A stretch of 64,000 nucleotides of DNA from Sordariomycetes sp. S80-01Y (lineage: Eukaryota > Ascomycota > Sordariomycetes). The position numbers and the translations under genes are program-made. Below the pieces are notes generated by a model. That model searched no databases and was not told the origin of the DNA. It was given only the letters and a program-made list of their open reading frames with translations. Every line of letters starts with the position of its first letter. The first letter of the stretch is position 1. Shown here one piece after another: positions 28,225 through 47,569 of this stretch. The stretch covers positions 620,001-684,000 of the forward strand of contig JAXQJY010000029.1 in the NCBI GenBank assembly GCA_037042185.1. The letters are read 5' to 3'.

Positions 28225-29778
28225 ATGGGCTCCTTCACCCCAAAAACTCGAAGGAATGTTGTTCAAATCATAGCAGACGACCTCGGGCTCATGCTCAACT
28301 GCTATGGCCTCTCAGCCATCCAGACACCCAACATCGACGCGCTCGCTTCAGAAGGGACTCGCTTCACCAGAGCCTTTGCCAGCACGGCGTCGTGCAGCGG
28401 CAGCCGCTCTACTATCTACACTGGCCTCCACACCCACCAAAATGGACAGTATGGGCTGAGTCACGGTTGGAATCACTTTCAGACTCACGATCATATTGAG
28501 ACTGCACCTGCTATCTTCAACGCTTTGGGATATCAGACGGGTATCATAGGCAAGGTTCATGTTGGACCGAGGAGTGTGTATCCGTGGGAGTGGCTTGCAG
28601 AAAGTGACACGAGGGATGTTGTTGCGAACGCGAGGGAAGCGGGCAGATTCTTCGACGAGTCTGAGAGAACCAATCGCGCGTTTCATCTAACGGTTGGCTT
28701 CAGAGATCCTCACCGAGATGCAACTCGGGGCGGATTCGGGAACGACGAGGTCGACATCCAGCACATCCCTGTGCCCCAATACCAAGAATCGGCAGTCGAC
28801 ATACCAGAGTTCCTGACTGATGTGCCCGAATTGAGAAAGGAGTTGGTGCAGTATTACAAGTCGATCAGCAGGATGGATCACGGCGTGGGGCTGGTCATGG
28901 CGGAACTGCGGAAAAGGGGCTTGGACGGAAACACTCTAGTGATCTTCATGAGTGACAATGGGTCCCCTTTTTTGAACTCAAAGACCACTCTATACGACGC
29001 GGGCGTTAGGTTACCGCTCGTCGTCCGCAAGCCCGGCGCAGCAGAGGGGGTAGTTAACCCAAACGTCGTTTCGTTCCTTGACGTGCTGCCGACGTGCCTT
29101 GATTGGGCTCGAACCGACAGCTTTGGAATCAGGACCCAGAAGCCAGGCGAGGCCCCCGAGCGCCTCGGGAGATCACTGCTCCCAATCTTGAGCTCTTCTG
29201 GCATCAGGTCGGAAAGCGAATGGAAGCAACACGTCTTCGGCTCACATACTTTCCACGAAATCCAGAACTACTGGCCCACACGCTTCATGCGCACGCAGAA
29301 ATACAAGTATCACCGAAACATTGCCTGGCAGCTCATGTTCCCGTTCGGCACCGACTTGTACGGAAGTCTCAGCTGGGAGGGACTACGCAACCACGCAGTC
29401 GACGACGCCGCGTCAGATACCCCCGAAGTCATGCTCGGGCGGAGGAGGCTGACCGGCTATCTATACCGCGGCCCGGAAGAGCTGTTCGACCTCGAGAACG
29501 ACCCCGAGGAGATCAACAACCTCGTGAACGACGAGCGTTACGCGCACATACTTCGGGATATGAGGGAAAAGATGGAGGAGTGGCAGTACCTGACAGACGA
29601 CGTGTGGCTATTCAAGGACGGCGTGAGTGCTATTTCGAGCGCCGGGTATCAGAAGCTGGGACTGAAGCTCCCGGACCGACACGATTTTGACCTTGGTCGA
29701 CCTGGCAACAAAGGAACTAAGAGCTGGGTGCTCAAAGAGAAGAAGAACACTAGTGGAATTGATACAAGGATGGGATAG
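28225..29778 (+). CDS. Sulfatase 1 (PF00884 type, sulfamidase-like)
   Basis: Predicted 517 residues in one exon, starting at an ATG in a strong CACCATGG context. Metal-binding D18-D19 lie in IIADDLG. The catalytic box is C57-S-G-S-R61, i.e. C-x-P-S-R with Gly in place of Pro; C57 would have to become formylglycine. GIIGKVHVGP supplies the usual Lys/His and SDNG the second metal pair. TGLHTHQNGQYGL and the overall pattern resemble heparan N-sulfatase-like enzymes, but the substrate is unknown: sulfated sugar, sulfamate or aryl sulfate are possible. There is no signal peptide, so it is probably cytosolic. It is followed in the same direction by a sugar-porter MFS gene. A clear paralogue lies at 43647-45137. 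Confidence 0.92.
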   Translation: MGSFTPKTRRNVVQIIADDLGLMLNCYGLSAIQTPNIDALASEGTRFTRAFASTASCSGSRSTIYTGLHTHQNGQYGLSHGWNHFQTHDHIETAPAIFNALGYQTGIIGKVHVGPRSVYPWEWLAESDTRDVVANAREAGRFFDESERTNRAFHLTVGFRDPHRDATRGGFGNDEVDIQHIPVPQYQESAVDIPEFLTDVPELRKELVQYYKSISRMDHGVGLVMAELRKRGLDGNTLVIFMSDNGSPFLNSKTTLYDAGVRLPLVVRKPGAAEGVVNPNVVSFLDVLPTCLDWARTDSFGIRTQKPGEAPERLGRSLLPILSSSGIRSESEWKQHVFGSHTFHEIQNYWPTRFMRTQKYKYHRNIAWQLMFPFGTDLYGSLSWEGLRNHAVDDAASDTPEVMLGRRRLTGYLYRGPEELFDLENDPEEINNLVNDERYAHILRDMREKMEEWQYLTDDVWLFKDGVSAISSAGYQKLGLKLPDRHDFDLGRPGNKGTKSWVLKEKKNTSGIDTRMG

Positions 29779-30326
29779 ATGCTTTAGATACTTGATTAGA
29801 GAGTCTGCTTGGACTGAATGCTCGAGAAGGATCACTCACTGGCCCAGCGCCCCTCGCCTTTTGGCCTTTCTCCTCGAGGCGCTAGCCAACTCAATCAACA
29901 TAACACAAATCTCAAACCGGTCAAAGTAACCTTTTCGTCTATGAGGGAGTGATTCCATGAGATCACGTAGGCCTGTATGGTCCATCAGTCATGCTGCGTC
30001 AATTGCCTCCGCTACGAAGTTGTTAGGCGGAACTCGTGCGATATCCGGTCCCGCACTCCCTGTCATGAGCCGTCAGGGTCATGGAGCATTCCATGTCCTT
30101 GACCCTATTCTATTGCGCAATTCATCTCCAGTACTCCCTTGTGGTCCCGCGGGGTCGGGATCATACCTCCGGCACTTCGTTTGGCGTCTTGGTACGCTAC
30201 CCCGAGATCCGTCGATACCCAGACTATGAACGCATAAAGAGCGACAACGTTCCAGTCTCCCGGACACTCTTCAGCTACCTGCCAAATACGTCGTTCCCCC
30301 ACGTACGAGACTAAAAGGGTATTAAT
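29779..30326. other. Intergenic, sulfatase 1 to sugar porter 1
   Basis: No gene is seen. One GCGGGG hexamer at 30149-30154 fits the SYGGRG consensus of the carbon-catabolite repressor CreA/Cre1; a single site is weak evidence. Confidence 0.3.
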
Positions 30327-31896
30327 ATGGGATTCTTTAGCAAGCAGGCTCAGTCCTTCAACCCCCAACTCGCTTTCGCCTGTTCCCTGATCGCCCTCTC
30401 CTCCTTCAACTATGGCTTCGACAACCAAGCCTTCGCCACGACGCAGGCTATGGACGCCTTCGACAGGCAATTCGGTGTATATGACGAGGAAGCCGGCGAC
30501 TGGGTTCTGCCTCCGACTTGGCTCGCCCTCTTCAACTCCCTGAATTACATTGGCTTTGCTGCCGGGGTTGTCATCGGATCATACGTGTCCGCAAGATGGG
30601 GTCGTCGGATGTGTATGTTCGTCATGAGCATCTACGCGCTTGGCACGGCGACGGTTGCGGTTACAAGCCAGCACAAGGACCAAATAATGGCGGCGAGAGT
30701 GCTGAACTATGTCTACGTCGGTATGGAGCTTGCTGTTGTTCCAGCTTATCAGTCCGAGATCGTACCGGCTCCCGTCAGAGGACTGATCGTCGGTACATAC
30801 CAGTTCTCCCTAGTTCTAGGAGGACTGGTGATTAACTGTGTCTGCCTTGGTACGAGCAACCTCCCTGACAATCGGTCCTGGCGCATCCCTATCGGTCTTT
30901 TCTACATCATTCCCACCATCATTGCTGCCGGAATCTGGTTCCTCCCCGAGTCGCCCCGTTGGCTCCTATCGAAGGGTCGGGTGGATGAGGCCCGCGTCAA
31001 TTTGGGCAAGTTCCGTTCAGGGGCGTTCCAGGAGGAGGAAATCGACCGTGAGTTCAATGAGACCCGTTTCCAGCTGGAGCTCGAGAGCGAGAAAGGGCAC
31101 TTTTGGGAGATCTTCAAGCGCAAGAACCTGAAGCGTACAATGCTCGTTGTTGGTATCAACTTCTTTCAACAAGCCACTGGGCAGCAATTCTCCAGCCAGT
31201 ATGGAGCCATCTACATCAAGCAGCTTGGGTCCATAAACCCATTCGTCTTCACATTAATCACCGCGACTGTCAATGCCGTCGCAATCATGATTTCCCTGTT
31301 GACGAATGACCGAATCGGACGACGCCTGCCACTGATGCTCAGTGCAACGATCATGTGCGTCGGGTTGATGACAATGGGTGGCCTTGGCACTCCTGCTGTC
31401 ATCACGCACGGCATCAAGGTCGCTATTGTTGCTTTCCTGGTGGTCATGACTTTCGGTTTCTCGATTGGCCTGGCGCCCCTTTGCTACGTTGTATCGACTG
31501 AGATACCTGCACTGCGCCTCAGGGATGCGACCCTTCGCCTGGGTTTCGTGATCAACGTCCTCATGAAGTAAGTCTTTCTTGGACGCGGCCCCCAAGATGC
31601 ATGCCGCTAACAGCTTCAGCTTCGTATCAAACTTCATCCTGCCCTACTGCATCGAGGCGTTGAACTCCAAGACGGGATTCGTCTTCGGATCCGTCGCGTT
31701 TCTCGGCATTCTGTTCATCTACTTCTGCATCCCCGAGTGCAAGGGAAAGACACTCGAGCAGGTTGACCGGATGTTTCAAGAGGGCGTTCCGTTGCGAAAG
31801 TTTGGCGCATACCAAGTCGGCCCTTGGTACGTTCCCGAGGGGAAAGCTGGTGTTGAGTTTGTAGAAATCGAGAAGTGCCAGAACGTGGCCGGTTAG
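30327..31896 (+). CDS. MFS sugar porter 1
   Basis: Predicted 505 residues from two exons (30327-31567 and 31620-31896). Sugar-porter signatures are present: RWGRRMCMF after the second membrane segment, PESPRWLLSKGR at the central loop, NDRIGRRLPL in the second half and PECKGKTLEQVDRMF at the C-terminus, with about twelve membrane segments. Fungal members with the N-terminal FNYGFDNQAFATTQAMDAF block carry sugars or related polyols; the cargo is not readable. It is the closest neighbour of sulfatase 1, and a paralogue (45718-47569) neighbours sulfatase 2. The last intron has two possible acceptors six bases apart (31613 or 31619). The single intron matches the position of the last intron of the paralogue. 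Confidence 0.92.
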
Positions 31897-32216
31897 AGTT
31901 CTGGATTTTCTAGTATATTGAGGCACCTATAGTTGTTCCACAGAGATAAAGATCATTCAGACCGCAACAGGCTTGCGACAACGATTCCTATCTGCACACT
32001 CTCATGCGTGACTATCTTTCACTACTACCGGCAGTCGCTGCCAAGCCTCGTAAGGGAATGACTGCGTTGGCTCAGAAAATGCGGTACAACTCAGTGTATA
32101 GTCGTGCCAATAAACTTTGCATGCTATGTACGTTCATCTATCGTGCTAAAAGGCTCGAGGTCTCGTAACCCTCGTGAAGTGTCATAATTACGGCCAGATT
32201 TCCCACTAGCACTTGT
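31897..32216. other. Convergent intergenic region
   Basis: It separates the 3' ends of sugar porter 1 (plus) and the GMC oxidoreductase (minus). Nothing else is seen. Confidence 0.5.
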
Positions 32217-34116
32217 TCAAGCGGCAGCCTTGCGGTCCTCCTTGATCAAATCGGCAGCCTTCTCAGCCACGGCATAGACGGTCGTCTGGATATTACCGCA
32301 AGGCTCCAGGGGGAAGATGCTCGCATCAACCACCCTCAATCCTTTAGCGCCGTAGACCCTCAGCCTACTGTCGACAACGCCGCCCTTGTCCTTTGGCCTC
32401 ATCGAGCAGCTGCCCGCGGGATGGAAGTCACCGACCTCGGTCTGCCGGACGATCTCAATGGCATTTTCTAGAGTATCACCCTTGATGTCAGGGAAACGCT
32501 TGCCGCCGGGCTTGAGGAGGTCCGAGAAGGGAGCGGTCTTGGTCAGAGTCTCAACAAACTGAACGTGTCGTGCATGAATCTCCATATCGAGAGGGTTCGA
32601 GCTGAAGTTGGGGTCCCACGCCGGCAGCTGATTGACGTCGTTGCTGGTGATGTGGATGCTTCCCCGCGAGAAGGGGTGGTTAAGCAGGGTCAACAGAGTA
32701 ATGCAGTTCTCGGGTCTAGCAGGCGCAAGGTAATCCATCATGCTGTTGGGCTCGGGGAGGGTGGTGTTGATCTGGCCTGGGAAGAGCATGTACTCGATGG
32801 ACGGCTCGTTGGTGGTTTCGAAAAGCTCCCGCAGAGCTTGGCCGTCGGGAGTCTGGGCGTGCTTGTCGTTCGACGCAAACAGTGCCTTCTTCGCATCGGC
32901 GGACAGGACACCCTTGTCGTCGGCGATGGGGATGTAGGCAACGCTGATGTTTGACTGACCCATGGGTCCCTGAGCCCCGTCTGCGTACTGAGCGAGGAGA
33001 GCGTTGAGCACGTTCGGGTCGCGCAGGACATCGCCTGAAGGAACATTGTCGTTCACTTCGAACGATTGGCAGACAATTGGGTGGTCCTGAAGATGCTCGC
33101 CGACATTGTGGTTGTCTACGACGACGGGGATATCGTACTTCTCCAGAAGGGCCTTTTGGCCAATGCCGGACAGCTCCAGAATCTGCGGAGACATCAGTGC
33201 GCCTGCGCAGAGGATGACCTCGGAGCCGGTGAGCTTCTTCTCAGTGCCATTCTTGGACACTGCGAGGACACCCGTGGCAACAGGCTCAGGGCCCGAAGTG
33301 TCGAAGAGGATCTTCTTGACCGTGGTACTGGTCACGACTGTGAGGTTCTTCCTGCTCCTGATCTCAGCCGAATAGTGAGCTGTGCCCGCATAGCTCCTCG
33401 TCTTGGTCGCCGGATCGATAGAGGCCGGCTGCTGGAAAGCTCCCTGAGCACCGCCGCTCCGCATGTCACCTGTCATGCCCATTCCATGCTTCTCGAAGGC
33501 GTCGAACCAGGCCTTGTTGTTCGGCCCATAGCCCTCGCCGAAGGACACGTGGATCGGGCCATCGCTGGTCAGATTCTCGTCGTGGTAGGTCAGCCCAATG
33601 GCATCTTTCGCCTTCTGGGGCGGGTTGTGCACGGTGGCAAACTTGGCCAAATAAGGGGAGAGACTTTCGTAGTCCCAGCCTTCGTTACCGAGAGCGGCCC
33701 AGGTGTCAAGGCTGTTCTTGGAGGGGTACACCAGCATCATAAAGTTGAGCGCCGAGGAGCCGCCAAGCTGCTTCCCGCGCGGAGTGTTGATCCTGCGGTT
33801 GTAAAGCTCTTTCTGAGCGTCTTGGTTAACATCTGCAACAGACCCACGATCATGCCGACGATGGACATCGTCGACGTGCGGCACAGTCACTAACCTGGGG
33901 CACAGAGTTGAAGTTCCAGTCGTATTCTGGGTTGCCGTACATGCCACCCACCAGACCGGGCGTCAGCACCAGGGGGTCTGTGGTGTGATCACCGCCGGCC
34001 TCAATGACTAGTACGTTGACACCCGCATCTTCTGTGAGACGATCCGCGAGCGTGAGGCCGGCAGTCCCTCCACCGACGATCACGTAGTCGAAGCTCTCTT
34101 CTGGTGCGGATCCCAT
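32217..34116 (-). CDS. GMC-family FAD oxidoreductase
   Basis: Predicted 605 residues from two exons (34116-33895 and 33812-32217). The FAD-binding motif VIVGGGTAGLTLADRL is at residues 12-27, the first GMC signature NTPRGKQLGGSSALNF follows YDWNFNSVPQ, the second is GALMSPQILELSGIG, and the C-terminal active-site pair is the His of DFHPAGSCSM and the Asn of CGNIQTTVYAV. The family oxidises alcohols such as glucose, choline or aryl alcohols using FAD. There is no signal peptide, so it is probably intracellular. I placed the intron acceptor at 33813 because it gives the usual spacing between VPQ and the RINTPRG block; an acceptor nearer 33833 would insert extra residues. It converges on sugar porter 1, within the sulfatase locus. 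Confidence 0.9.
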
Positions 34117-35889
34117 CTTGGCGCTATGACGGTTACGGCGAGGCTAGACTAGGGAGTTGAGTATCGTGACTTGTGTGATCAAGGATTTGGCGGACAAGTT
34201 GGGCACGATGGACGATGTTGAATGATTTAAAGAAGAACAACACCTATGTATCTTCGGAGCGATTGAGGTGTCCGCGATGCAGCATCAAGCAGCAAAGAGG
34301 GGACCAACAGACTCCACACTCGCCTCTGGCACATCTTGGCCGATTGCCTGTATGCAATGGAGTCACGGAGTTGCAGTCCAGATGTGAGGTCCAAGACCAC
34401 TGGCGGCCGTTGGGGGCTGGCCCACGACACATGCGTCCTCGGCCCAGGGCTGCGGGAGCTTCCAACGAATCTGGATAGCTGCTCGGGCCTAGGGCAACGG
34501 TTTCGAGGGGTTGCTGGTGTGTTATGCAGGACCGATAGTTCTCAAGCAGGGTTTGAGAAGCAAGGAGGGAGCTCATTGGACAATTGGACCAAGCGGATAC
34601 AACATGATTTTTCTTCGGCAGCCGCCTGGCGGACCCCCCCGCTTGATGTCGAACACAGGGTCCGCGGGAGTTCCGAGAGATGGGTTCCGGCCGAGGGCTT
34701 GACTCTTGAAGAAGGCAACGTTGGGGTCGGAATGACTCGCACCCCACGCACAGACCAGAAATGTCTACGAGAGATATTAACTAAGTAATTGCTCGGACTC
34801 AACGTTGGAAGTGAATGTCTCGGGCGCCGGTTTGCGTTCGGCCGGGTGCGAAATGCTCGGCACAGTCCCACCCACCGTACCGTGCCGCAACAGGACTTGG
34901 AGCTCTTCTCGGACTAGCAGCGGGCCTCCTACCGCTATGATCGTGATGATCTTCACATGTAACGGGGCACAACCTTGGAAGGCCTGAGAGATCTTGGATG
35001 GCCCTTGCGAGCTCCGTTCTTCTCAAACAAGTGGCTGAACTTTGTCACAACTCGACCCCGGGATCGGCCAGGGGGGACATTGCGAGATCGCACGACGTGT
35101 CGTGCAGCTTGGACCTGGATTCGCGATCACATACAGCACAAGTCCGGGCTTGGATGGCCCGTTGTTTCCTGCAGGGGAAACTCAGAAGAATCAGTTTGGC
35201 GAAGCAGAAGAAACCGTTGGCAAGTCGCCACAGGACCAGGAACCCGCCCTCGCTACACAACTCTCCACTTCGCTTTAAGCAGCGTCCGTCTTGGTTCGAC
35301 GGGGAAGTCGAGGGCCAAGCCGAGAGCGCCACCCCACCCCGCGACTGTTCCGCTGCTCCCACGAGTCCGAATACACGAGCTTGGCAAGCTAACGAGCGAC
35401 GGGCCCCGAATTCCAGGTTTTGGTGGCAGCAGACGTTGAGGCTTGACAGCGGCAACGGCTCTCGCATTGTTTTCCATCAGCGAGCGTCCAGGGGGGATAG
35501 GGCTGCCCAGGCCGGTCTCAGTGAGCCGCACAATCTTCCAAGGAAATGGGGCCCAGCCGTTGAAGGCTTGACTCAAGATGCTCCAATGTTTTTTTCTCTT
35601 CCCTGGGCGTCCCTCGGTAGACCAGTAGCCGTCGGACGGAGACATTCTTGCTGCATTTGATGCCTTGCTGATGTGCGATTCTCGCCTAGCGCTTTCACGA
35701 GGCCGAGCCTTACTTCTACGCTACATCATCATATAGCCCATGTGGCGCGCAAAAGACCTCGGGGAGCCCCTTAAGTCTTCTTCTTCCTATACTTGCCTCT
35801 CCGCTTTGTTATCTATCTGTTGCTTGGGTAGCGTAGCCTTGATACTTGGAAGCGTCCGCCCAGCAGCAGGCTGACAACACGACCTCGAC
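34117..35889. other. 1.8-kb gap between divergent genes
   Basis: I find no gene here, although both strands have several open frames of 60-220 codons that overlap each other and lack recognisable domains. The 10-mer CCAGGGGGGA occurs at 35068 and 35488. The gap is the divergent upstream region of the GMC oxidoreductase and the Pth11-like gene. Its length is unusual for this gene-dense window. Confidence 0.4.
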
Positions 35890-37169
35890 ATGGCGCTTCA
35901 GGAGCTGAGCCTCCCGGTGAAGCCAATAGTCAGGACTCACTTCATTGTCAATTGTGTCCTGGTTGTCATCACGCTAGCTGTCGTTGCGCTGCGCATGGTC
36001 GCTCGCTTCATCACCAGCGTATCGCTCGGCTGGGATGACTACCTCATTTTGCTTGCCGTGCCCCAAGGCATAGGCATGCTCGTCATACAGGGCCTGTGTA
36101 AGTACTCTTCTCCTCTCCCGCGAGGGAAGCCTAGGGTGATCATCGATGTGGCCTGTCGAAAGACGACCAAGAAGCGCGGAGCTGTATCTGACTGGAACAG
36201 ACATGCCAATGGGCGTCGGCTACCCCATCACGGAGACAATCGCCAACCTCGAAATCATCCTCAAGCTCATGGTATCCTACTCCCTGATCTACACCTTCGC
36301 CATCAGCACCATCAAGCTGAGCGTCCTCCTCTTCTACCTCCGCGTCTTCGTGGGCCAGCGCTTCCGCCTCATCACCAAGATCGTCGCGGGCGTGGTTGTG
36401 GTCTACACCTTGGCCAACGTCCTGCTGCTGGTGCTCATATGTCGACCGTTCGCCGCCAACTACGACATGACTGTGGACGGGAGTTGCGGTGATCAGCCGA
36501 CGGCCTACATCAGCATTGGGGCGTACAACATCATCTCGGATGTGGTCATCCTGTGCTTGCCGATTCCGATGGTTTGGCGGCTGAAGGCGAAGAGGGAGAT
36601 GAAGATTGGCCTGACTCTCATTTTCCTTGTCGGTCTGATGTAAGTCATGTTCTGGTGTCCTGCTTAGAGCGTATGCTAATGTTTTGGCTCCTAGTGTCTC
36701 CGGCGTCGCTGTCGGCCGCATCTTCACCCTGAAAGCCCTCAGGCTGGCCAACATCACCGAGACAATGGTCTGGGTGGACTTCCTCTCCACGACCGAGGTG
36801 ACGCTCGGCATCCTTTGCGTCTCCATACCCATGCTGGGTCCCATCCTCGGCCGCGTCCTCAAGAACCGCGGCGCTTCCAAGCTCAGCGCCACGCCGGAGC
36901 GCAACCAGCAGTTCGGCTACGGCTCCGAAAGGAGCAGCAGGAAGAAGAGGACGATGGACGACACGCTGTGCATGGACACCATCTACGGGGACGACAACGC
37001 GAACCACGACGCCAACGTCGTGGGCGGCAAGGCGGACAGGGCAGGCGAGAGAGGGGAGGCGAGCACCGACGACGGGAGCGAAGCCAGTCTCAACGGGGGC
37101 AGGGAGCTTGATGGGGGGAGGGGGAAGGCGATTGTCGTGCAGAAGCAGTGGTCTGTTTCACATAACTGA
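35890..37169 (+). CDS. Pth11-like seven-transmembrane protein (fungal rhodopsin-type domain)
   Basis: Predicted 373 residues from three exons (35890-36097, 36201-36639, 36695-37169). Seven hydrophobic segments are visible: the first at residues 20-38 (VNCVLVVITLAVVALRM), then a block beginning SLGWDDYLILLAV, a GWDD motif typical of this family. Next come SLIYTFAISTIKLSVLLFYL, VVVYTLANVLLLVLICRPF and ISDVVILCLPIPMVWRL, all hallmarks of the fungal integral-membrane family that includes Pth11. No N-terminal CFEM cysteine domain is present. The ~100-residue cytosolic tail is polar and Gly-rich. Family members sense surface or chemical cues, but most are uncharacterised. It converges on the arylsulfotransferase gene. 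Confidence 0.85.
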
Positions 37170-37741
37170 GGAGCATCTTCATGATGCGGAGGCGTGGAAA
37201 AGAATTCTTCTGAAGCATAACACTCGGCGTTTGGCAAAGCATTTGGTGAAGGTTTACTCGGCGATTCATGAAGACTAGGGACGAACGACAAAGAAGCATC
37301 ACTGCGTACCTCAATGATTCAATAGGCTGATATCCGAGAATAGCAGCAGTCAAGGCTCCACAGCACTCATTTGGCTCAAAAGATGCCTAAGTACCGTTCG
37401 CACGGTCGAGCAATGGTTCTATGCCATCCATCTCCCAAAGCTCAATCTTCATGCTCGTGATTTCCACCGATGTTCACTTACACGCCTGACTACCTTTCCA
37501 AAAGAGGCTTCTAAACATACTGGGCCTGATGTAACGCTGTTGGTCGGGACGCCAAGGCCATGTTTTTGAACCAGAACGTGTGTATTAGGACACTATGCAT
37601 TACTAAAGGCGGCTGAGTCTGTAATCGAACGATGATGGTTCGTCCTAGGTGCACGCAACACCACGGATCATGATAACCAAAGGGTCCGAGTGGAAAAGGT
37701 AAGGTATGTCATTATCAAAGAATATAGGCCGTAAACACCGC
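37170..37741. other. Convergent intergenic region
   Basis: It lies between the 3' ends of the Pth11-like gene and the arylsulfotransferase gene. I see nothing in it beyond untranslated sequence. Confidence 0.5.
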
Positions 37742-39604
37742 TCAAACATCGTCGTCGTCGCTGGTATACAGCGGCTGCATCTCGTGCGGCTTCCCCTTTC
37801 TCCTCCCCCACTTTCTCCTCCTGTTCCACCAAGTCCTCGTCCGCCTGGGCACGCAGCAACAGCACCACTTCATGACGGACGGCTGAGCGAGCTGCCACGT
37901 CTTTGCGATGATCCTCCAGATCCTGCTCCTCAGCGGGCGGCAGGAGTCCCAGACGAAGAGGAACGCGCAGACCAGCACCACGTTGGCGAGCCACTTCAGC
38001 CAGCCCAGCACGACGCCGAGAATGTCGACGGGTGGCACGTTGCCCATGCTGCGGGACAGCTTTTGGGAGTGGATGAGCGTGTCGCCGTTTTTGTCAATGG
38101 ATGCGACACGGAGATAGGCGGGCATGCTGGAGTCGATGTCGAAGGTGGTTTCGAAGTAGCCGTTCTTCTCCTTGATGTCAATGTCGATCCAAGGTCCTTC
38201 CTCGGCGGCCTCCCACTCTGCGCCTTGGAGGAGCCACTTTTCAGTCTGGGTGTCCCCGTTCCAGCTGACGTGCAGCAGCCCTTCGGACGGATCGAAGAAG
38301 ACATCTGGGCGCTTGGTGGGCTTGCCGACCCAGTCACCCTTGAAGGCGCGGTAGCTGTTGACGAAACCAAGGTGGAAGATGGCCCAGGGTCCGAAGTGCA
38401 CATCGCAGAGAACCTCGCTGGTTTCCGTATCAAACTCGGTGAAGGCGGGGAAGAAACCGTAGTCCACCATCATGGAGCGCCCTTCATCCCAGAGCTGCGC
38501 CGAGCCTTGCGAGTCGGCATGCTTGCCAGCTGAAGGATCGAAGACTTCGTGGAGGAGCTTTGCCGTCTTCTCCTCCTGGTCGAGCTGAATGACTAGGCCG
38601 CGCGAGTAGTCGTAGGGAGTGGCGGGCCCGTCGCGTTCGGCCTTGGCGTTATCGAACATGGTGATGACGTCGTTGTCGTCGATACGGATGTGGTGCTGGT
38701 AGGTAAAGTCGATTGCCTTCCCATCCGAGAGATCCTTGAACTCGTTGTGCTTTCCGCCGAGGGTCCAGAGGAGGGTGCCGTCGGGGGAGATGCAGTGAAT
38801 GGTCTGGGTGTGGCGGCCGGAGACAATGTAGTTGCCGTCCTTGTCCTTGTCCATGCTGTTGATGTGGAAGTAGTCGAAGCCCTTTTCGGGGGTGTACCCG
38901 GTGTCACGTCCGGCGTAGTAGCGGATGGTGTCCTCTAGCGGGATGCTGCTGCTTGCGCGCCATTCAAACAACAGCTCCCCAGTCTCAATGTCGACTTCTT
39001 GGAAAACACTATCCATCAGCCAGCCCTCTTTAGGTCCGCCAATAGGGCTGAGGTCCCACGTTCTCGCAGTGTAGGCGGTCAGCAAGGCGGTGTCGTCCTT
39101 GGTGATGTGGAACTCGTGAAGGTCGCTGAGGAAACCCTCGCCATGGGCCCTGAATGTTCTGAAGACGTTGTAGTTCTCGTCGACCATGTAATGCTGACCG
39201 CGCCCCCAGCCCATGCTGATGCCCTCGAGATCCTTCCAAAAGGTGAGGTACTGCTTCCCCTTGTAGGTCTGGGACTGGAGGTCGGCAGCAACACCAAACT
39301 GCTGAACACCAGACCACACCAAGTTGCCCTTGCCATCCATGATCATGGGACCGCCCTTTTCCACCGCGCGCCCCTTGGGCGTAAACAGGTAGTATCCGTT
39401 CATGCATCGTTCATCCCACTGCAGAAAGTTGAGACGCGGCACGGGCGAGCCCTTGAAGGAAGGGAAATTGGTGACGGGAAAGAGGCCATACCAGCCCCAT
39501 TCGTAGAGATGATGCGAGCTGAAGACATCGCTCGTGGCTTGAGCGAGGCAGATAAAGCAGCTTATCGCGACCAGCGCGATACAGAGACGGGTGAGCCTCA
39601 GCAT
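37742..39604 (-). CDS. Membrane-anchored arylsulfotransferase (ASST-like)
   Basis: Predicted 620 residues in one exon. A signal peptide covers residues 1-23 (hydrophobic core LCIALVAISCFICLA). The body is a beta-propeller of the fungal arylsulfotransferase family: GPMIMDGKGNLVWSG, DLHEFHITKDDTALLT, GFDYFHINSMDKDKDGNYIV, DGTLLWTLGGK and FTYQHHIRIDDNDVITMFDN, giving several conserved His residues expected at the active site. Bacterial ASST enzymes move sulfate from one phenolic ester to another without PAPS; that chemistry is inferred here. Near residue 545 a hydrophobic helix (WLANVVLVCAFLFVW) follows, then a tail with CCCC and many Arg/Lys, ending in DDDD. Predicted topology is an outside propeller with a cytosolic basic tail. 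It lies between two sulfatase modules. Confidence 0.9.
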   Translation of the reverse strand: MLRLTRLCIALVAISCFICLAQATSDVFSSHHLYEWGWYGLFPVTNFPSFKGSPVPRLNFLQWDERCMNGYYLFTPKGRAVEKGGPMIMDGKGNLVWSGVQQFGVAADLQSQTYKGKQYLTFWKDLEGISMGWGRGQHYMVDENYNVFRTFRAHGEGFLSDLHEFHITKDDTALLTAYTARTWDLSPIGGPKEGWLMDSVFQEVDIETGELLFEWRASSSIPLEDTIRYYAGRDTGYTPEKGFDYFHINSMDKDKDGNYIVSGRHTQTIHCISPDGTLLWTLGGKHNEFKDLSDGKAIDFTYQHHIRIDDNDVITMFDNAKAERDGPATPYDYSRGLVIQLDQEEKTAKLLHEVFDPSAGKHADSQGSAQLWDEGRSMMVDYGFFPAFTEFDTETSEVLCDVHFGPWAIFHLGFVNSYRAFKGDWVGKPTKRPDVFFDPSEGLLHVSWNGDTQTEKWLLQGAEWEAAEEGPWIDIDIKEKNGYFETTFDIDSSMPAYLRVASIDKNGDTLIHSQKLSRSMGNVPPVDILGVVLGWLKWLANVVLVCAFLFVWDSCRPLRSRIWRIIAKTWQLAQPSVMKWCCCCVPRRTRTWWNRRRKWGRRKGKPHEMQPLYTSDDDDV

Positions 39605-41190
39605 GATGGGTCTGAGAATTTAACCGCGCCCTGAGCGAGGCTCGCGGCACACGTGCTCGGTTGCCACTCTGGTGCCCCTGACGTCGCAGTGAGAGCAGAA
39701 CTGCCGTCGCGCGGGATGAAGAAGAAAGGACGACTCAAAGCAGCTGCAAGTTGCCACGCAGTAAGGACTGGGCAGAGGTGAGGGCAAAAAGACGATATGG
39801 CGGCTGCTCGAGTTTGAGCGTCACAAAGTCGATCGTCGTTTGGTCTCTTTCGATGCGCCCAGGAAATTGGCGGCGGAGCCTGAGCCTGCAGACGTCGCCC
39901 ACCCACATGCACAGGCATGCATGGGGGAGAAACTCGCACGCTGTATGGCCGGTTCAGCGAGCGCAGGGGGATGAGGGTGATGTGGCGTAGCACTGGGAGG
40001 CGGGTCGACGTCCTCTGGCAGGGGCTTGAGGCGCCCGGAACAGGTGATGCTGGGCGGGTCTCGGTCGGGGCAGGTTAAGGTTTGGCAGGGCTACCGGCAG
40101 TGAGGGATGAGAGTCAATAATCCGGGATATGAACGCAGCAGTAATATGAGGATGCGAAAGGACGACCAGAAGTCCGCGGCGATGGAGGAAAGGAGGAGTG
40201 ACCGACCGGCGGGCCCCTGGAGAGTCGAGTCGAGGTGATGGATGCCGTGTCGGTGCCCCGTGGGAGTCAGCGAATAACCATAAAAGCGCCCCGAGACTAG
40301 AGCTGTTAGTGGTCGTTTTGGGGCTCTCAGCGGGGCTCCCCTCCCCCCCGTAGAGCATGTTGGGGGGGCATTTTGGCCTGTGGTGCGGAAGGATTTAGCA
40401 TTTAGGCTTCTGACGCGTGGCACGGCATGCCATCATTGTGCATCGTGCGTGAAATTGCTGTCGTCGTGACCTCGCTTGCCGTCTCCGACCTGCTGCTCGT
40501 ATTGCCCGCCTTGGTGGCCTGTCTTGGTGCCCGCGCGATATGGAATAAAGCCACGTGAGCTCTGACAATGCATAGAATCCGGTCTTCACGCCAAGCGCGC
40601 CCTGCGAACGCTGCCTCTCCACCGTCTGCAGGACTCAGACTCGGAGCGTCGAGTTGGCTGCGGCAGTGCAATCGCGGAGCATCGGCGACCGACCTGCCGA
40701 CTGGCAACGGCGCTGGTGGTGATTGGGCCACTGGCACACCACGAGTCAGGGGGCGGGTGGGCGGAGGAGTCTGACCTGTGCTTCACCCTGACATGTGCAG
40801 CACGTTTCGTTGACTTTCCTCTTTTCCCCCAATGGAAGCCGGTCCAAGGACTATGCTCAAGTCACGTGCACGCAGCACACAAACTACCTCAGATCAAGGA
40901 CGGAGCCGACGCTACTCTTCTTGTCGTTGGCTTGTAATAAATCTCGGAGGCCCTCCTAATGGCTACTGCTGCAGACGAGAAGCTTGAGCTAATTGCCCTC
41001 CAACCTGTGACCAAGGATTAAGCCATGAACCTCCGCTGCACATTGATCCTTCAGCCTAAGGAACCACTACAATGGCCAATCATGACTCCCAACCAAATTT
41101 CCATTGGCAACTGAAAGGCTCAGTCAAGCATCGAGCATCATCAACTTTTCGCTGCACGGGAACTGCGAATCTCGAGCTGCCAGGTCAGTT
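39605..41190. other. 1.6-kb gap upstream of the arylsulfotransferase
   Basis: No gene is supported. A C7 run (40343-40349) and a G7 run (40362-40368) form a short inverted repeat. The rest is presumably the arylsulfotransferase promoter and the 3' flank of the minus-strand regulator. Confidence 0.4.
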
Positions 41191-43290
41191 CTAGAACTCT
41201 GTCTGCATCCCGCGTGTCCAATCGCTGGGCAAGAAGATGGACGAATCCAGTCCAAAGTCGGGCAGTCCCAGATCTGGCAGCTCGTACAAGGATGCGTCTA
41301 TGCCGTGATAATCCCATTCCCCCAGAGTACTTGTGTCATCCAGAAGCCCGGACACGACGTCAGCTCCTTCGTTGTTTGCACGGGTACGCTGAGCTGCGTC
41401 TACCATTCCAGACGCTACTGGTGGTGCTTGGTTACAATCCATGGCTGGCGACTTGAGGGCTGTTTCAACGTGGGTCTCTGTGGTTGAGGGTGAAAGCAGG
41501 AAGCTGTCACCCTTGCTGGGCATGTCAATCTGCCCGATGAGGCTGTGCTTGGATAGGACGTGACGAGATCGCGCGTGCGTGGTCGGCGGCTCCATCATCT
41601 TTGGGCCTCGGGCTTGTCGCGTTGCAGCTTGCGCCGAAGGGAGCTCCTCGCTGACCAACGTCTCGGCGTCTTGTATCTGCGTTTCGAGTCAGCTTCCAAG
41701 GTGTTGAGACGCCCGAGGAGAACTCACAATGGCCTTTACTGCCGGAGTCGGAGCGAACATAGACCGCAGGAACCGCAGCCCTACCTGGCAACGATCTGTT
41801 ATCGTCTCATAAACCTCGTTCGAGCCCGCCGCGGTCGTGCAATACGACCTTATCATCACTCGAAGGCACTGATAAACGCACACGGCAACGTCGAGATCCA
41901 AGGGCACATCATCGACTTGAGCCGCATCTACCGCTGACAGCATGTCCGTGACCGCCTTTGGACTCTCCAAACACCGCTTCTCGCTTGCTGTTCGGAAATC
42001 CAAGTCGAGCTCAGCTGTCGTCTCTCGCGGCAGCGACTCCACGAGACCGTCTAGCACGAGGCGATGTAAGATGCAAACGACACCATGCCAAGTGGCATGC
42101 AGTGACAGGAAAATCGAGAGTGTAGTTGAATAGGCGTGGAGCATGATGTTGTGCTTCGAGAGCTTGTAGGCTGCTGGTAAGTCATCCCGGAAGGTTTCGA
42201 GGTCCCTTTGGCAGTTCAGGATGCCCTCAATGATTGCAGTCGTCGGCGTGCGTCTCTCGACAGCCTTCTTGGTGAATTGGAGAGCCTGGTGCCGCAATCG
42301 TGCCAGCCGCAAGATGAGCGCCAAAGGACTGTCTTCCCGCCTGTCGCTGCCGTCTCCTGGTGGCAGGTCCATTTCGAAATTGCGCTCATGGCAAGGAAAG
42401 TCGACGTGTATCATGTCGGACAGCGACAGCGCGAAATCTTGATATCCAGCCGCCAACGTCGAGTCGATCAGGTACAACGACCACATCGTTCGTCGACACG
42501 ATTCCCGAGCCAGGAAACTCAGCTGAGGGTCCTCGTAATTCAATCGCAGCCCGGTGGCAAAGCGGACGGCGATTGCTGAGAGCATGAATACACTTGCAAA
42601 GCGCTTTGTGAGCGCACGGTACTTGACGATGAGAATAAGGGCCTGGATTCGGGGTACCGTCGGCCGTTCCATATCATCGAGAACCATCGCGGCGGCTTCG
42701 TCGATGAGATTTTCACCCAGATCCCGAGTATCCTGCCCCAGATCACCCAGGAGGGAGCAAATCCCGACTATTGACAAGAGCAAGGCGCGGTCAAGTAAGC
42801 CGTTGCGGTACTGTTCGACTATGCAAGCTCTATGCAAGAAGGCGAAGACCGGGATGCGATCCAGCTTCTCAAAGAAGACTCGGAAGGCCAGCATCGCCAA
42901 GTCTCGCGGTACTTCGTTCTCCGTTGCTCCAAACTGGCCGTTCCCAGTAACATCCGGCTCTGTCTCGAACGAAGCTGAACTTGTGCCGCCTGCTTCAGGT
43001 TGGCTCTTAGGACCCGGATATGAGCAGCTCAAACCTAGCCTCGAACACCTCTGGCAAGTCGGCCTTTCCTCGTTGCATCGTATCCTCCTTGCATGGCAAG
43101 CGAAGCACGCGGCGTGGGCTCTTCTTCGGCGAATCGGTGGCTGCGAAACGGAGTTCCTGGGTCTCATTTCGTAAGAGCAGGTGAAGCTGAGGCGTTCGCA
43201 GTTACCGCAGGTCCCTTTGCGGCCATCGCAGCGGACTTTGCGTGCTCTGCATGTGGCGCAGGTATTAGGTGACTGACGGGAGGGCGTCAT
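41191..43290 (-). CDS. Transcription factor with two tandem Zn2Cys6 clusters (TF2)
   Basis: Predicted 682 residues from two exons (43290-41728 and 41676-41191). Two complete zinc clusters sit close to the N-terminus: C11, C14, C21, C28, C31, C38 and C62, C65, C72, C79, C82, C89, with a 23-residue linker holding a basic IRRRRAH. The regulatory domain (about residues 120-420) carries ESCRRTMWSLYLIDS and PCHERNFEMDLP, which align by eye with TF1 of this window. Unlike TF1, no intron interrupts the first cluster. The C-terminal tail is acidic and ends in LPDLGLPDFGLDSS, a likely activation region. Its place beside sulfatase 2 suggests it regulates the sulfatase locus; that is inference. Confidence 0.9.
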
Positions 43291-43646
43291 GGCCTATCCG
43301 GTGAAAAGCCTAGCAAGGCCGCGAAAGTTGACTCGCAGCTCACTGACGGGACTGATGTAGGTTGAGGTCGGAGAAATACCAAATTGTCGTGACATCCGCC
43401 ATCAAATAAGCGGGGTGGTGATTCTGGGGCCCCGGCTTCTTAGTCGTAGCTAATGGGGCTCTACCACAGATACCGGATGTCGGTCATCACCGGGTACGTG
43501 ACTAGCTGTGTCTCACTGTGGACTTTAACTACTTGTGATGGTTCTGCCTATGAGATCGATCGTCTTTTAGTATCACAACCGTAGGTATCTTGGGTTCTTT
43601 TCCTGGTTTTGTGGGATCGACTTGATGTCATTTGGCCAGCTTGTAC
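43291..43646. other. Intergenic, TF2 to sulfatase 2
   Basis: TF2 promoter and sulfatase 2 3' flank (both genes on minus). CGG/CCG triplets cluster at about 43470-43496 (ACCGGATG, TCGGTC, ACCGGGT), which would permit zinc-cluster binding. No gene is seen. Confidence 0.35.
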
Positions 43647-45137
43647 TTAAATCAGCTTATAAGCTGTAACACTATCTGTTCGCGGCGAATCCGCATCAAA
43701 GTCGAAGCGATCAGGCATGCAGAGGCCTTCGCGGGCGTAATTAGACGACAGGTATCTCATCACCGGTGCCCCGTCCCTCCACAGCCAAAGGTCTTTCGTC
43801 TGCTTCTGCCACGCCTCCAGCCGATGCCGCATCTCCCTCAGCGTCGATTCGAACTCGGGCAGCCCTGCAAGATTGTTCACCTCTTGGGAATCCTCATCCA
43901 TGTCGTAAAGCTCTTCGGGCGGCCGACGGATATAGTCTTTCAACTTCCTCGGTCCGATCATGGCCGGCGACTCCGACGTGCCCGAGTTTCGCATGCCTTC
44001 GAACGACAGCGAGGCGTACAGGTCCATTGCGAAGGGGAAGTCAAGTTTCCAGCACACATTACGATGGTATTTGAATTTCCGAGTTCGCATGTACCGTGTT
44101 GGCCAGTAGTTAGTGATCTCGTGAAACGTGTGAGATCCGAAAACACAGTCCCATCCCGGTTCGGGGCCTTCACAGCCGACGATGGGCAATATTGAGCGGC
44201 CGCTTCGCTGTTTCTTGTCGGGAGGAGCCTGCAGACTGATCTTACCGGCCCAGTCGAGGAATGTTGGGAGGATGTCGACGTAGGACACGAGATTAGGGTT
44301 GACTACTCCACCGCTGTTGCCGGGCACTTTCATCAAGAACGGCAATCTCACCCCAGCGTCGAACAGCGTTGTCTTGGAGTTGATGAACGGCGGCCCATTG
44401 TCGCTAAGGAAGAGGACCAGAGTATCCTGCGTTAGGTCCTGCTGTTCTAGACAATCGAGAATCAATCCGACTCCTTGGTCTAACCGATGGATGGCTCTGT
44501 AATATTCGGCCAGCTCTCGTCGTACTTCTGGCAGATCACTGAGATACGAAGGCACTATCACATCCTCCGGCTTGAAGATGTGATCCGTTAGTCGACTATC
44601 GTAGTTCCCTTCGACATTTCCAAAGCCCGCTCTTCTTTGTAGCTGACGGTGCGGGTCCACAAAGCCAACAGTCAAGTAAAAGGATTTATCTTCTGACCTT
44701 GCGTCTGCGAAGAAGTCGTTCACTTGCTCTGCGATCCACGCCACGTTTCTCGACTCGCTTTCGTTCTGAACCTGCCAGGGATACAGACTCTCGGGGCTGA
44801 CGTGGACTTTCCCAATGATACCAGTCTTGTATCCCATCTTGTTAAACACCTCGGGTGCAGTCTCGACGTCGGCGAAGGTCTGGAATCCATTGGCACCGTG
44901 TGTCAATCCGTAGCTCCCGCTCTGGTGCGTGTGAAGCCCGGTGTTGATGACTGTCCGGCTCCCGCTACAGGAGGCAGTGCTTGTAAAGGCCATATCGAAT
45001 TGGGTGCCTGACGATGCGAGCTTGTCGAGGTTGGGCGTTGGCAGAGCTGGGTTCCTGTAGCAGCCGAGCTGTTCGCGACCAAGGTCGTCAGCTATGAGCA
45101 TTAGGATATTCTTTTTCGGCGCCATTTTGCTCTGCAT
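43647..45137 (-). CDS. Sulfatase 2 (PF00884 type, paralogue of sulfatase 1)
   Basis: Predicted 496 residues in one exon; a second ATG four codons in (45125) has the better context, AAAATGG, and would give 492. Metal-binding DD at 17-18 lies in LIADDLG, and the catalytic box is C57-S-G-S-R61, again with Gly in the Pro position. It shares long blocks with sulfatase 1: STASCSGSR, GIIGKVHV, LTVGF-DPHR, NSKTTL-DAGVRLP, GVVNPN and GSHTFHEI-NYWPTR. There is no signal peptide, so it is probably cytosolic. The sulfated substrate is unknown. It is transcribed divergently from sugar porter 2 across 580 bp, and TF2 lies just downstream. Confidence 0.92.
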   Translation of the reverse strand: MQSKMAPKKNILMLIADDLGREQLGCYRNPALPTPNLDKLASSGTQFDMAFTSTASCSGSRTVINTGLHTHQSGSYGLTHGANGFQTFADVETAPEVFNKMGYKTGIIGKVHVSPESLYPWQVQNESESRNVAWIAEQVNDFFADARSEDKSFYLTVGFVDPHRQLQRRAGFGNVEGNYDSRLTDHIFKPEDVIVPSYLSDLPEVRRELAEYYRAIHRLDQGVGLILDCLEQQDLTQDTLVLFLSDNGPPFINSKTTLFDAGVRLPFLMKVPGNSGGVVNPNLVSYVDILPTFLDWAGKISLQAPPDKKQRSGRSILPIVGCEGPEPGWDCVFGSHTFHEITNYWPTRYMRTRKFKYHRNVCWKLDFPFAMDLYASLSFEGMRNSGTSESPAMIGPRKLKDYIRRPPEELYDMDEDSQEVNNLAGLPEFESTLREMRHRLEAWQKQTKDLWLWRDGAPVMRYLSSNYAREGLCMPDRFDFDADSPRTDSVTAYKLI

Positions 45138-45717
45138 AATTGCGAAGAGATGTAAGCCCAGACTGGAGAGGAATCAAATTGGGTAAATGTAATGCTTGGG
45201 GCATCTGTTGCTGAGATAGTCGTTGTGCGAGATTCATCCGGTTGACTATAGATCATTGGTAGGAACCGAAAGGGCGCGCGTATCTTTGTGGGATCAACTG
45301 GACGGTTGGATCCCTTGCAGGTTGAATTCCATCCTACGTGAAACGTGATCAGAACACAAAGGTTGTCGCTATTGTCGCTGCTCCGACAGCCTTCCCCGAT
45401 CGGTTCACTGTGTGCCGTGCCGATCGGAGCTCCGAGTGCCTAGTCAACTTCCCAAGACCAATATTCCCAGGCCTTGGTCTCCATACTCTAGATCAACAAG
45501 GCCGAAGACGCGGGGTGCCCTCACAGAAACATGGGGATATGATTGCCCCAGGTTGGATGTTGAGCCTTGATGCTAATATGGCGTGCTTGACCGTTGACTT
45601 CTGGACAGGCTTTTAAGGAATCCTTTCCCCAGACTCGCATACTATTCGGGGGACATCACGTTAGAGCGACACCATTCTCTATTAACATTCAACTCAAATA
45701 TTCCTGCAGTCCTCATC
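45138..45717. promoter_or_regulatory. Divergent promoter with two CCGATCGG palindromes (45396, 45420)
   Basis: The 580-bp region serves sulfatase 2 (minus) and sugar porter 2 (plus). CCGATCGG occurs at 45396-45403 and again at 45420-45427, with centres 24 bp apart. Each is CCG-N2-CGG, an everted pair of the triplet that Zn2Cys6 proteins recognise. They lie about 300 bp upstream of the porter start. Binding by TF2 is inferred. Confidence 0.5.
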
Positions 45718-47569
45718 ATGTTCGGATTTGGGCATTTAGCTCTCAGGGAGAGCTTTAACAAGAAGCTCACGCTGACAGTCCTTCTCATCACCGTGTCCCA
45801 GTTCAACTTCGGCTTCGACCAGCAGGGATTTGCCGCAACGCAGGCTATGGATGCATTCGCGAGGCAATTTGGTGTCTTTGACCCAGATTCGAAGACTTGG
45901 ATCCTCGAACCTGTCTGGTTGTCTTTCTTCAACGGGTTTAATTACCTCGGGCAAGCCGCTGGTGCGTATGGCCCGCAGCAACTCAGAGACGAGCGCGTTT
46001 ACTGACCCGAACCTTGACATGCAGGCGTCGTTATCGGAAGCTATGTTAGTAAGAGATGGGGTCGACGAATGTGCATGTTTACCATGAGCATATGGGCAAT
46101 CGTCGCCGCTACGATCGTCATCACCTCCAAGTCGCCCGATCAGATTCTTGTTGCCCGTGTCCTAAACTGTAAGCTCTCGTCTTCTGCACACATTCTGCAA
46201 TCTGCTCCTGACATGCATAGATATTTATATTGGCATGGAGCTCGCAGTAGTCCCAGTCTTCCAAAGCGAAATCACCCCCAAGCACGCCAGAGGCTTCGTC
46301 GTTGGCACATACCAAATCAGTCTTTTCGTGAGTGCAAAAGTCCCCTTTGGTTCGGGCAATAAAGTATCTGACGTAACAATCAAAGATTGGCGGACTGGTC
46401 ATCAACTGTATTGCACGTGGCACTGGTGATCTTCCCGGCAGGGAGGCGTACATGATTCCTTGGGGCTTGTTCTACGTTGTGCCAAGCTTCGTCTCGGCGT
46501 GTATCTGGTTTGTTCCAGAGGTGAGCTCCCACCATGGATGGCTTATTTCAACCGCTAATCTCACTCAGTCTCCAAGATGGCTCGTGCTCAAGGACCGCAA
46601 CGAGGACGCGATCGAATCGCTTCGCAAGCTCCGATCCGGGAAATACACCGACGAGCAGATTGATATTGAATACCGGGGCATTCTCGAATCGATTGAGCAA
46701 GAGAGACAGAAAGGGACATTCTTGGACATATTTCGCAAGAGACACGTCACGCGAACGTGGGTTGTCATCGGCGCCAACTTCTTCCTCCAAGGCACTGGAC
46801 AGCTCTTTACTTCTATCTATGGTGCCCTGTTCGCCAAGTCTTTGGGCACCATCAACCCTTTCACGGTCACGATCATGATTGCGGTTGTCAACGTCTTCAC
46901 ATCTCTTCTGGCAATGGTTTTGACCGACAAGTTAGGAAGAAGGTGAGCTGCTTCGTCCAGGAGCAGAGACATACATACTGACCGGACAGACTGCAACTGC
47001 TCGTCGGTGCTGCTATTCAAATGAGCGGCCACATGACTATGGGCGGCTTGGGTACGATCGCGGGGCCCAGTGATCAGGTCAAGGCCGGCATCGTCGCGAT
47101 GATGGTTGTCACAACTTTCGGTTACTCGCTCGGGTGGGCGCCCACGGCTCACATCCTCAGCGCGGAGATTCCTAGCACCACGCATCGTGATATGACGTAC
47201 AGGACCGCCTCGGTGCTTAACATCGCAACTCAGTACGACTCTCAAAGTATCTTGAGGATTTCAAAAGCTAATGAACTCAGGTTTGCGGTGTCCTTCTCGC
47301 TTCCTTATCTGCTCAACGAGCCTTATGCGGCGCTTGGATCGCGCGTAGGTTTCATCTTTGGGTCGATCTCGGCCGTCTCCCTGATTTTCGCCTACTTTTT
47401 CATTCCGGACGTATCTGGCAGGTCACTCGAGGACGTCGATCGCCTCTTTGACTCCGGTATTCCGTTGCGTAAGTTCAAGGGCGCCAAGCTCGAGGAAGTC
47501 AATTACGTGTCGGAGGACAAGATGGACAAGACTGGTAGTATAGAGCAAGTCAGAGAGGAAAGGGCTTGA
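45718..47569 (+). CDS. MFS sugar porter 2 (paralogue of sugar porter 1)
   Basis: Predicted 511 residues from seven exons (45718-45961, 46025-46168, 46221-46327, 46386-46520, 46569-46942, 46990-47232, 47281-47569). Porter 1 served as guide: QFNFGFDQQGFAATQAMDAF, VVIGSYVSKRWGRRMCMF, YIGMELAVVP and GTYQISLF align with it block by block. PESPR is interrupted by intron 4 after PE, and the C-terminal PDVSGRSLEDVDRLF matches the porter family. The sixth intron is 48 bp and free of in-frame stops, so an unspliced product with 16 more residues is possible. It is driven from the promoter shared with sulfatase 2, which suggests that import and desulfation are coupled. Confidence 0.9.

Follow-up and report, generated by a model that had tools for sequence, protein, structure and literature searches.

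Two sulfatase genes, each adjoining a gene for a sugar porter of the major facilitator superfamily (MFS), lie within 19 kb of DNA from Sordariomycetes sp. S80-01Y (GenBank assembly GCA_037042185.1, contig JAXQJY010000029.1, positions 620,001 to 684,000 of the forward strand). This whole stretch of 64,000 nucleotides is referred to as the window, and gene positions count from its first letter. The best reading of the four genes, which we consider probable with some reservation, is a duplicated module of a porter and a cytosolic sulfatase whose substrate would be a small sulfated sugar or glycoside. The porter would import the sulfated compound, and the cytosolic S1 sulfatase, which resembles human SGSH, would cleave the sulfate ester; the released sulfate would enter assimilation and the sugar would enter catabolism. 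In bacteria, a similar enzyme is encoded behind a sugar importer of the ATP-binding cassette (ABC) type. Several points of this reading are inferred: a common substrate class for the enzymes of fungus and bacteria, carriage of the sulfated substrate by the porters, an O-sulfate linkage, the cytosolic location of the sulfatases and any regulation of the module. Its four genes are:

28225-29778, plus strand: sulfatase 1 (sulf1), 517 aa in one exon; PF00884, E 1.6e-35

30327-31896, plus strand: MFS sugar porter 1 (MFS1), 507 aa with one intron at 31568-31613; PF00083, E 5.2e-72

43647-45125, minus strand: sulfatase 2 (sulf2), 492 aa in one exon; PF00884, E 3.8e-37

45718-47569, plus strand: MFS sugar porter 2 (MFS2), 511 aa in a spliced model of seven exons; PF00083 in the reading frame of one exon

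Pfam matches above the curated cut-offs confirmed every gene type that the initial annotation had named in this block. Domains such as Fungal_trans, Zn_clus and the fungal rhodopsin domain, together with short introns of the GT-AG type, mark the window as fungal. PF00083 scored 243.6 bits in the frame of MFS1 exon 1 and 76.4 bits in one exon frame of MFS2. The sugar porter model TIGR00879 gave 224.5 bits for MFS1 exon 1, slightly below its cut-off of 237.8, and the matches of MFS2 in the Protein Data Bank (PDB) were of the GlcP/STP/GLUT type. The two sulfatases share 53.2% identity (257/483 aligned residues) and the two porters 51.4% (257/500). The orientation of the pairs differs, with sulf1 and MFS1 in tandem and sulf2 and MFS2 diverging from a shared upstream region of 592 bp. 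Since the sulfatase pair and the porter pair are about equally diverged, these two identity figures fit a duplication of a two-gene unit that was followed by a change of orientation. Two clustered sulfatases would by themselves be less telling, because fungal genomes carry roughly 2 to 22 sulfatases each according to the available text of PMC8351168.

Close relatives of the fungal sulfatases were found in bacteria. Bacterial and archaeal genome contigs were scanned with an alignment of the two sequences by means of two peptide patterns, which more distant relatives may escape; 46 stretches matched, and 20 of them encode a relative, corresponding to 19 loci. We take these loci to belong mostly to Alphaproteobacteria, many of them from marine or saline genera. 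The exception is locus L016 (Marinicella sp. W31), where the order of the genes does not differ but the reading frames are fragmented, which may be an effect of draft sequence. Identity to sulf1 in the best segment was 52–60% across the 19 loci, comprising 52–57% over most of the length for 18 of them and two pieces with 60% and 49% for L016. In all six bacterial genomes searched with sulf2, a relative with 57–62% identity over nearly the full length was detected. Among 289 genomes from the class of genome G004, four matched sulf2 at E ≤1e-25, namely the seed and three others at 30–34% identity, and among 299 genomes from its phylum sulf1 was matched by the seed alone (at most five candidates per genome were scored in both searches). 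Matches to sulf2 at E 1e-30 occurred in 29 of 72,556 plasmid records, and among the best 15 of these 29 those from Marinovum (53.7%) and Salipiger (52.6%) were followed by one at 37.0%. As judged by sequence identity, the fungal and alphaproteobacterial sulfatases are thus a tight group with a gap beneath it, because identities of 52–62% within the group stand against about 40% to human SGSH, 37.0% for the next plasmid match and 30–34% for the other genomes of the class. A more distant sulfatase, 32% identical to sulf2, is encoded on Deinococcus deserti plasmid 3 (L043) directly after a carbohydrate ABC permease gene.

Three other proteins of the window were compared with the same six bacterial genomes as controls. 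The M16 peptidase gave partial matches at 28–33% and the GMC oxidoreductase at 28–42% in all six genomes, and the MFS1 exon 1 product matched three of the six at 25–27%. Because the sulfatases reach 57–62% in these genomes compared with 25–42% for the controls, a horizontal transfer of the sulfatase lineage between the fungus and Alphaproteobacteria, in either direction and in one or two events, is likely. A phylogenetic tree of 25 rows, with outgroups from Bacteroidota, Gammaproteobacteria and Deinococcus, united the fungal pair and the Alphaproteobacteria with support values of 100/98. After removal of sulf1 from the dataset, sulf2 was placed at the base, and after removal of sulf2, sulf1 joined the Nitratireductor rows at 86/85, which the program did not mark as significant. 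In an earlier tree with human SGSH and weakly similar sulfatases as outgroup, the two fungal sequences had grouped with each other (support 90/90), a result that carried a warning about long branches.

The genomic context of the bacterial sulfatases is strongly conserved. Eight proteins encoded in locus L012 were used to search the 19 loci over their whole length. In all 19, genes for a PHP-like protein, a sugar-binding protein (SBP), two permeases, an ATPase and a PfkB kinase lie upstream of the sulfatase gene on the same strand. A Gfo/Idh/MocA dehydrogenase gene is present in 18 of the 19 and absent from L003, a locus that is cut by a contig end and retains just part of the PHP-like gene; in four loci the available sequence starts within the dehydrogenase gene, so that just its last ~90–110 residues are present. 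The full operon consists of genes for a GntR regulator, the Gfo/Idh/MocA and PHP-like proteins, the SBP, two permeases, a UgpC-type ATPase, an optional SIS-domain protein, the PfkB kinase and the sulfatase (domains Gfo/Idh/MocA, SBP_bac_1, two BPD_transp_1, ABC_tran, PfkB and Sulfatase). An identical gene order is annotated on a plasmid of Salipiger profundus. The GntR gene was found upstream in both loci examined for it (L030 and L032) and on the Salipiger plasmid. The SIS-domain gene, located between the ATPase and kinase genes, occurs in four of the 19 loci and on the Salipiger plasmid (L002, L008, L011, L018 and L039; the L011 copy is frame-broken). Its product shows weak similarity to GlmS and NagB-II, and some of the operons may thus handle an amino sugar or include an aldose-ketose step. 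Among solved proteins, the best match of the SBP was 6jai, an ABC substrate-binding protein whose name mentions no ligand; next came MalE3, SmoF and a trehalose/maltose-binding protein. Sulfotrehalose, which the trehalose-type SBP might suggest as substrate, is a guess, and the best literature matches held no link between this compound and the operon. For the PHP-like protein (L012:1361-2905, ~515 residues; homologues in 19/19 loci including the L003 fragment), a sub-threshold match to DUF3604 was the only domain match. Its structure model (predicted local distance difference test, pLDDT, 64) had a PHP-family metal phosphoesterase as best Foldseek match, which gives no substrate. In L012, a gene for a LacI-family regulator (9399-10415, minus strand) adjoins the sulfatase gene on the opposite strand.

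We read the bacterial operon as a putative uptake pathway for a sugar or glycoside with an intracellular sulfatase. The initial annotation had suggested that the fungal genes serve the uptake and subsequent desulfation of a sulfated sugar or phenol. The uptake and desulfation of a sulfated sugar is supported, because a full ABC importer for sugars and a sugar kinase are encoded alongside the bacterial relatives in 19/19 loci; a phenol is the less likely substrate given the sugar-porter family of the fungal transporters and the carbohydrate context in bacteria. Tentatively, and with less than even confidence, we propose that a sulfatase lineage for one small, as yet unnamed sulfated glycoside was passed between Alphaproteobacteria and the fungus, that the fungus pairs it with an MFS porter where the bacteria have the ABC importer and that the porter-sulfatase unit was duplicated in the fungus. 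If true, this would be a nutrient module shared across domains, and it would point to a sulfated sugar that is abundant in nature but undescribed, such as a sulfated alpha-glycoside or a sulfated amino sugar.

The solved structure closest in sequence to sulf1 is that of human SGSH (PDB 4mhx, E 7.4e-80), followed by an S1_8A sulfatase (E 1.2e-38). Both fungal enzymes are 40% identical to SGSH (179/442 and 176/433 aligned residues). Twelve residues named in the available text of the SGSH structure paper (PMC4014121), all located in the SGSH segment without a numbering offset, were mapped onto the fungal proteins. Ten of the twelve as well as the catalytic Cys are kept in both, the conserved positions comprising the metal ligands, the catalytic Cys, Arg74, Lys123, His125, His181, His368 and Asp401; the catalytic Cys and the metal- and sulfate-binding set (D, D, C, R, K, H, H, D, N) are likewise complete. 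The two exceptions are Arg282, which is replaced by Lys (Lys253 in sulf1 and Lys251 in sulf2), and Asp399, which is replaced by Gly or Ala. Lys also occupies the position of Arg282 in all 19 bacterial loci. In the text available from PMC4014121, Arg282 is tied to the binding of the N-sulfate and is salt-bridged to Asp32 and Asp399, and the O-sulfatases compared there carry Lys. Because of the Lys and the Gly/Ala at these two positions, the fungal enzymes are predicted to be O-sulfatases on an SGSH-like scaffold. A choline-O-sulfatase identity was rejected, since TIGR03417 scored 105.5 and 112.2 bits, far under the cut-off of 433.45. A hydropathy scan of both sulfatases, a simple scan made without a signal-peptide program, detected no membrane or signal-like stretch, and for this reason both enzymes are probably cytosolic; the scan is strict and found just 8 and 5 segments in the two porters.

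The canonical formylglycine motif of sulfatases is C-x-P/A-x-R, and both fungal enzymes carry CSGSR. The family PF03781, which we take to include the formylglycine-generating enzyme (FGE) along with other proteins, is present in five of the six sulfatase-bearing bacterial genomes. Fungal arylsulfatases appear to lack the formylglycine modification according to the accessible part of the review PMC5857272.

Several observations weigh against the proposed module and its bacterial connection. The Gly of the CSGSR motif is Ala in 18 of the 19 bacterial loci, with Gly in L015 and on the Salipiger plasmid, and one of the six bacterial genomes searched (G001) had no match to PF03781, which counts against a simple formylglycine story. 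The fungal branches in the tree are long and not firmly placed within or beside the bacteria, and a bacteria-only clade was not rejected (p-AU 0.246). When the eight operon proteins were compared with the window by tblastn, the two sulfatases were the only matches, all others having E-values of 0.24 or worse; as no homologue of the Gfo/Idh, PHP-like or PfkB proteins occurs there, the downstream catabolic pathway is not in the window. Pairwise comparison of seven upstream regions (21 pairs, four word lengths, 100 shuffles) showed word sharing near the shuffle level in most pairs. No 8-mer was present in all three core regions (those upstream of sulf1, MFS1 and sulf2-MFS2), and a strict CYS3/MetR-type site was found in none of the seven regions.

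The remaining upstream signals were scattered. The regions of sulf1 and MFS1 have two overlapping 11-mers in common (reached in 2/100 shuffles) and three 10-mers (1/100), and the regulator and sulf2-MFS2 regions share twelve 8-mers compared with 5.6 expected (5/100); given the number of comparisons, none of these excesses is convincing. One loose CYS3/MetR-type site lies upstream of MFS1, and CACGTG occurs upstream of sulf1 and of the arylsulfotransferase gene described below (2 of 13 occurrences in the window). For inverted zinc-cluster half-sites (CGG-CCG), no spacing was found in all three core regions. Direct repeats of the form CGG-N16-CGG are present in the three core regions and two others, a distribution for which there is no chance estimate. 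The adjacent regulator, whose N terminus has two tandem Zn2Cys6 clusters instead of one, may control the module, being a candidate with an unproven link.

Four further genes lie between the two sulfatase-porter pairs:

32217-34116, minus strand: GMC oxidoreductase with N- and C-terminal domains (PF00732 and PF05199)

35890-37169, plus strand: Pth11-like receptor with a fungal rhodopsin domain; PF20684, E 9.2e-35, in one reading frame; the span includes unplaced introns

37742-39604, minus strand: arylsulfotransferase-family protein (ASST), 620 residues; PF14269 (Arylsulfotran_2), E 6.6e-51

about 41191-43290 (ends approximate), minus strand: Zn2Cys6 regulator with Zn_clus in two stretches and Fungal_trans (PF04082)

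Three stretches outside the block, 50333-51457, 55150-56495 and 57491-58072 (minus strand), hold a further transporter of the MFS_1 family, two GMC-type frames with sub-threshold scores and a histidine phosphatase domain.

The ASST protein matched PF14269 with 173.9 bits and PF05935 with 70.3 bits, and its similarity to the sulfotransferase of known structure 9kf4 extends over ~430 residues (E 6.5e-53). Its residues H163, H247, N249, R264 and H304 stand in motifs like those of the EcAST active site, with identical letters in 9kf4; the motifs were not aligned directly to His252, His356, Asn358, Arg374 and His436 of EcAST, the spacings differ, and the fold model of the protein has a pLDDT of 35. 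The hydropathy scan placed hydrophobic stretches at residues 7–25 and 531–549, and the ectodomain is thus probably outside the cell or luminal and hence in another compartment than the sulfatases. PF05935 was found in none of the six bacterial genomes that hold the sulfatase, a search that did not include PF14269 itself, and no relatives of the GMC protein were among the operon genes identified. An arylsulfotransferase gene is named in a Beauveria bassiana gene cluster in the portion of PMC12142624 available to us.

The initial annotation had also let the ASST, GMC and Pth11-like genes cooperate with the sulfatases and porters. A single cluster of eight genes, in which sulfatases and porters act inside the cell, a membrane-anchored ASST moves sulfate outside and the GMC oxidoreductase and the Pth11-like receptor belong to the same pathway, would agree with the location of all genes within 19 kb together with a zinc-cluster regulator, with the relationship of the ASST to a solved bacterial-type sulfotransferase and its retained His/His-x-Asn/Arg/His motifs, and with the CACGTG upstream of sulf1 and ASST and the weak word sharing between the regulator and sulf2-MFS2 regions. 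We nevertheless consider it quite unlikely, as upstream word sharing is mostly at the shuffle level, PF05935 is absent from the six sulfatase-bearing genomes, the GMC protein has partial bacterial matches of 28–42% with none among the operon genes identified, and the ectodomain of the ASST would be separated by a membrane from the sulfatases, which are probably cytosolic. Moreover, the excerpted text of the review PMC13426309 cites one study in which bacterial arylsulfotransferases took aryl but not alkyl sulfates as donors, a preference that would misfit a sugar sulfate. The cooperation of these three genes with the sulfatases is therefore unsupported, and we treat them as neighbors of the module with unproven membership.

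Two other explanations retain the sulfatases and change their role. They could be broad sulfur-scavenging enzymes in a cluster of paralogs, with the adjoining porters, which belong to a large family, there by coincidence. Fungi have many sugar porters and no clear regulatory motif unites the genes, which suits such a scenario, as do the up to 22 sulfatases per fungal genome given in the accessible part of PMC8351168; we judge it unlikely because both sulfatases adjoin porters of one subfamily that are similarly diverged, and because a sugar importer stands beside the bacterial relatives in 19/19 loci. Alternatively, the enzymes could be true sulfamidases that remove the N-sulfate from glucosamine, so that the module would feed on heparan-type or other sulfamate sugars. 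SGSH is indeed the closest solved structure by sequence, with 40% identity and 10/12 residues kept, the SIS gene with its weak GlmS/NagB-II similarity occurs in 4/19 loci and on the Salipiger plasmid, and the fungal sulfamate-desulfurizing enzyme is called unidentified in the text available from PMC5857272. The replacement of Arg282 by Lys, shared by 19/19 bacterial loci, and that of Asp399 by Gly or Ala in the fungal enzymes speak against this function, and the search for the SIS gene was negative in 15 of the 19 loci; we regard this function as distinctly unlikely. Preference thus goes to the duplicated module of a porter and a cytosolic sulfatase, with a small sulfated sugar or glycoside as substrate.

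The use of sulfate esters by fungi is poorly mapped at the gene level. The link between the module of porter and sulfatase and a bacterial operon of strong conservation makes the substrate guess testable, as finding the substrate of one enzyme could identify it for both. In addition, an O-sulfatase residue on a sulfamidase-like scaffold cautions against annotating such genes as heparan N-sulfatases by similarity alone. Orphan fungal sulfur sources whose enzymes are unknown, sulfamate included, are listed in the accessible part of the 2018 review PMC5857272. Among the best matches listed from open-licence papers, in searches only some of which targeted the module, no title or abstract dealt with a fungal sulfatase-porter module of this kind or with the bacterial operon.

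Compared with known systems, the fungal sulfatases resemble human N-sulfoglucosamine sulfohydrolase SGSH, assigned to SulfAtlas family S1_8 in the available text of PMC5066984, in their 40% identity over ~440 residues and their catalytic and metal positions, but differ from it by Lys for Arg282, Gly or Ala for Asp399, Gly for Pro in the active-site motif, the lack of a signal-like stretch and the adjacent sugar porter. With the fungal choline and aryl sulfatases, which the accessible text of PMC5857272 treats as serving alternative sulfur sources, they have the S1 type in common, although their TIGR03417 scores set them apart from choline sulfatases. The ASST is similar to arylsulfate sulfotransferases that are independent of 3'-phosphoadenosine 5'-phosphosulfate (EcAST and 9kf4) in its PF14269/PF05935 match and active-site-like motifs, but is known from sequence alone and has a C-terminal hydrophobic stretch and a basic tail that these enzymes lack. 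The bacterial operon recalls the pathways for sulfoquinovose glycosides, as its SBP resembles SmoF (E 5.8e-61) and the nearest solved relative of its Gfo/Idh protein is 8qc2 (E 4.1e-17; a weak likeness whose best stretch covers ~167 of 417 residues), which is a GH188 NAD-dependent SQase in the portion of PMC10755693 available. Those pathways, however, involve the C-S chemistry of a sulfonate, whereas a sulfate-ester hydrolase is encoded here. The closest counterpart is the alphaproteobacterial operon itself. Its sulfatases belong to the same subfamily as the fungal enzymes (52–62% identity) and are likewise tied to sugar uptake, whereas the fungus has an MFS porter for the ABC importer and a window without the extra catabolic genes of the operon.

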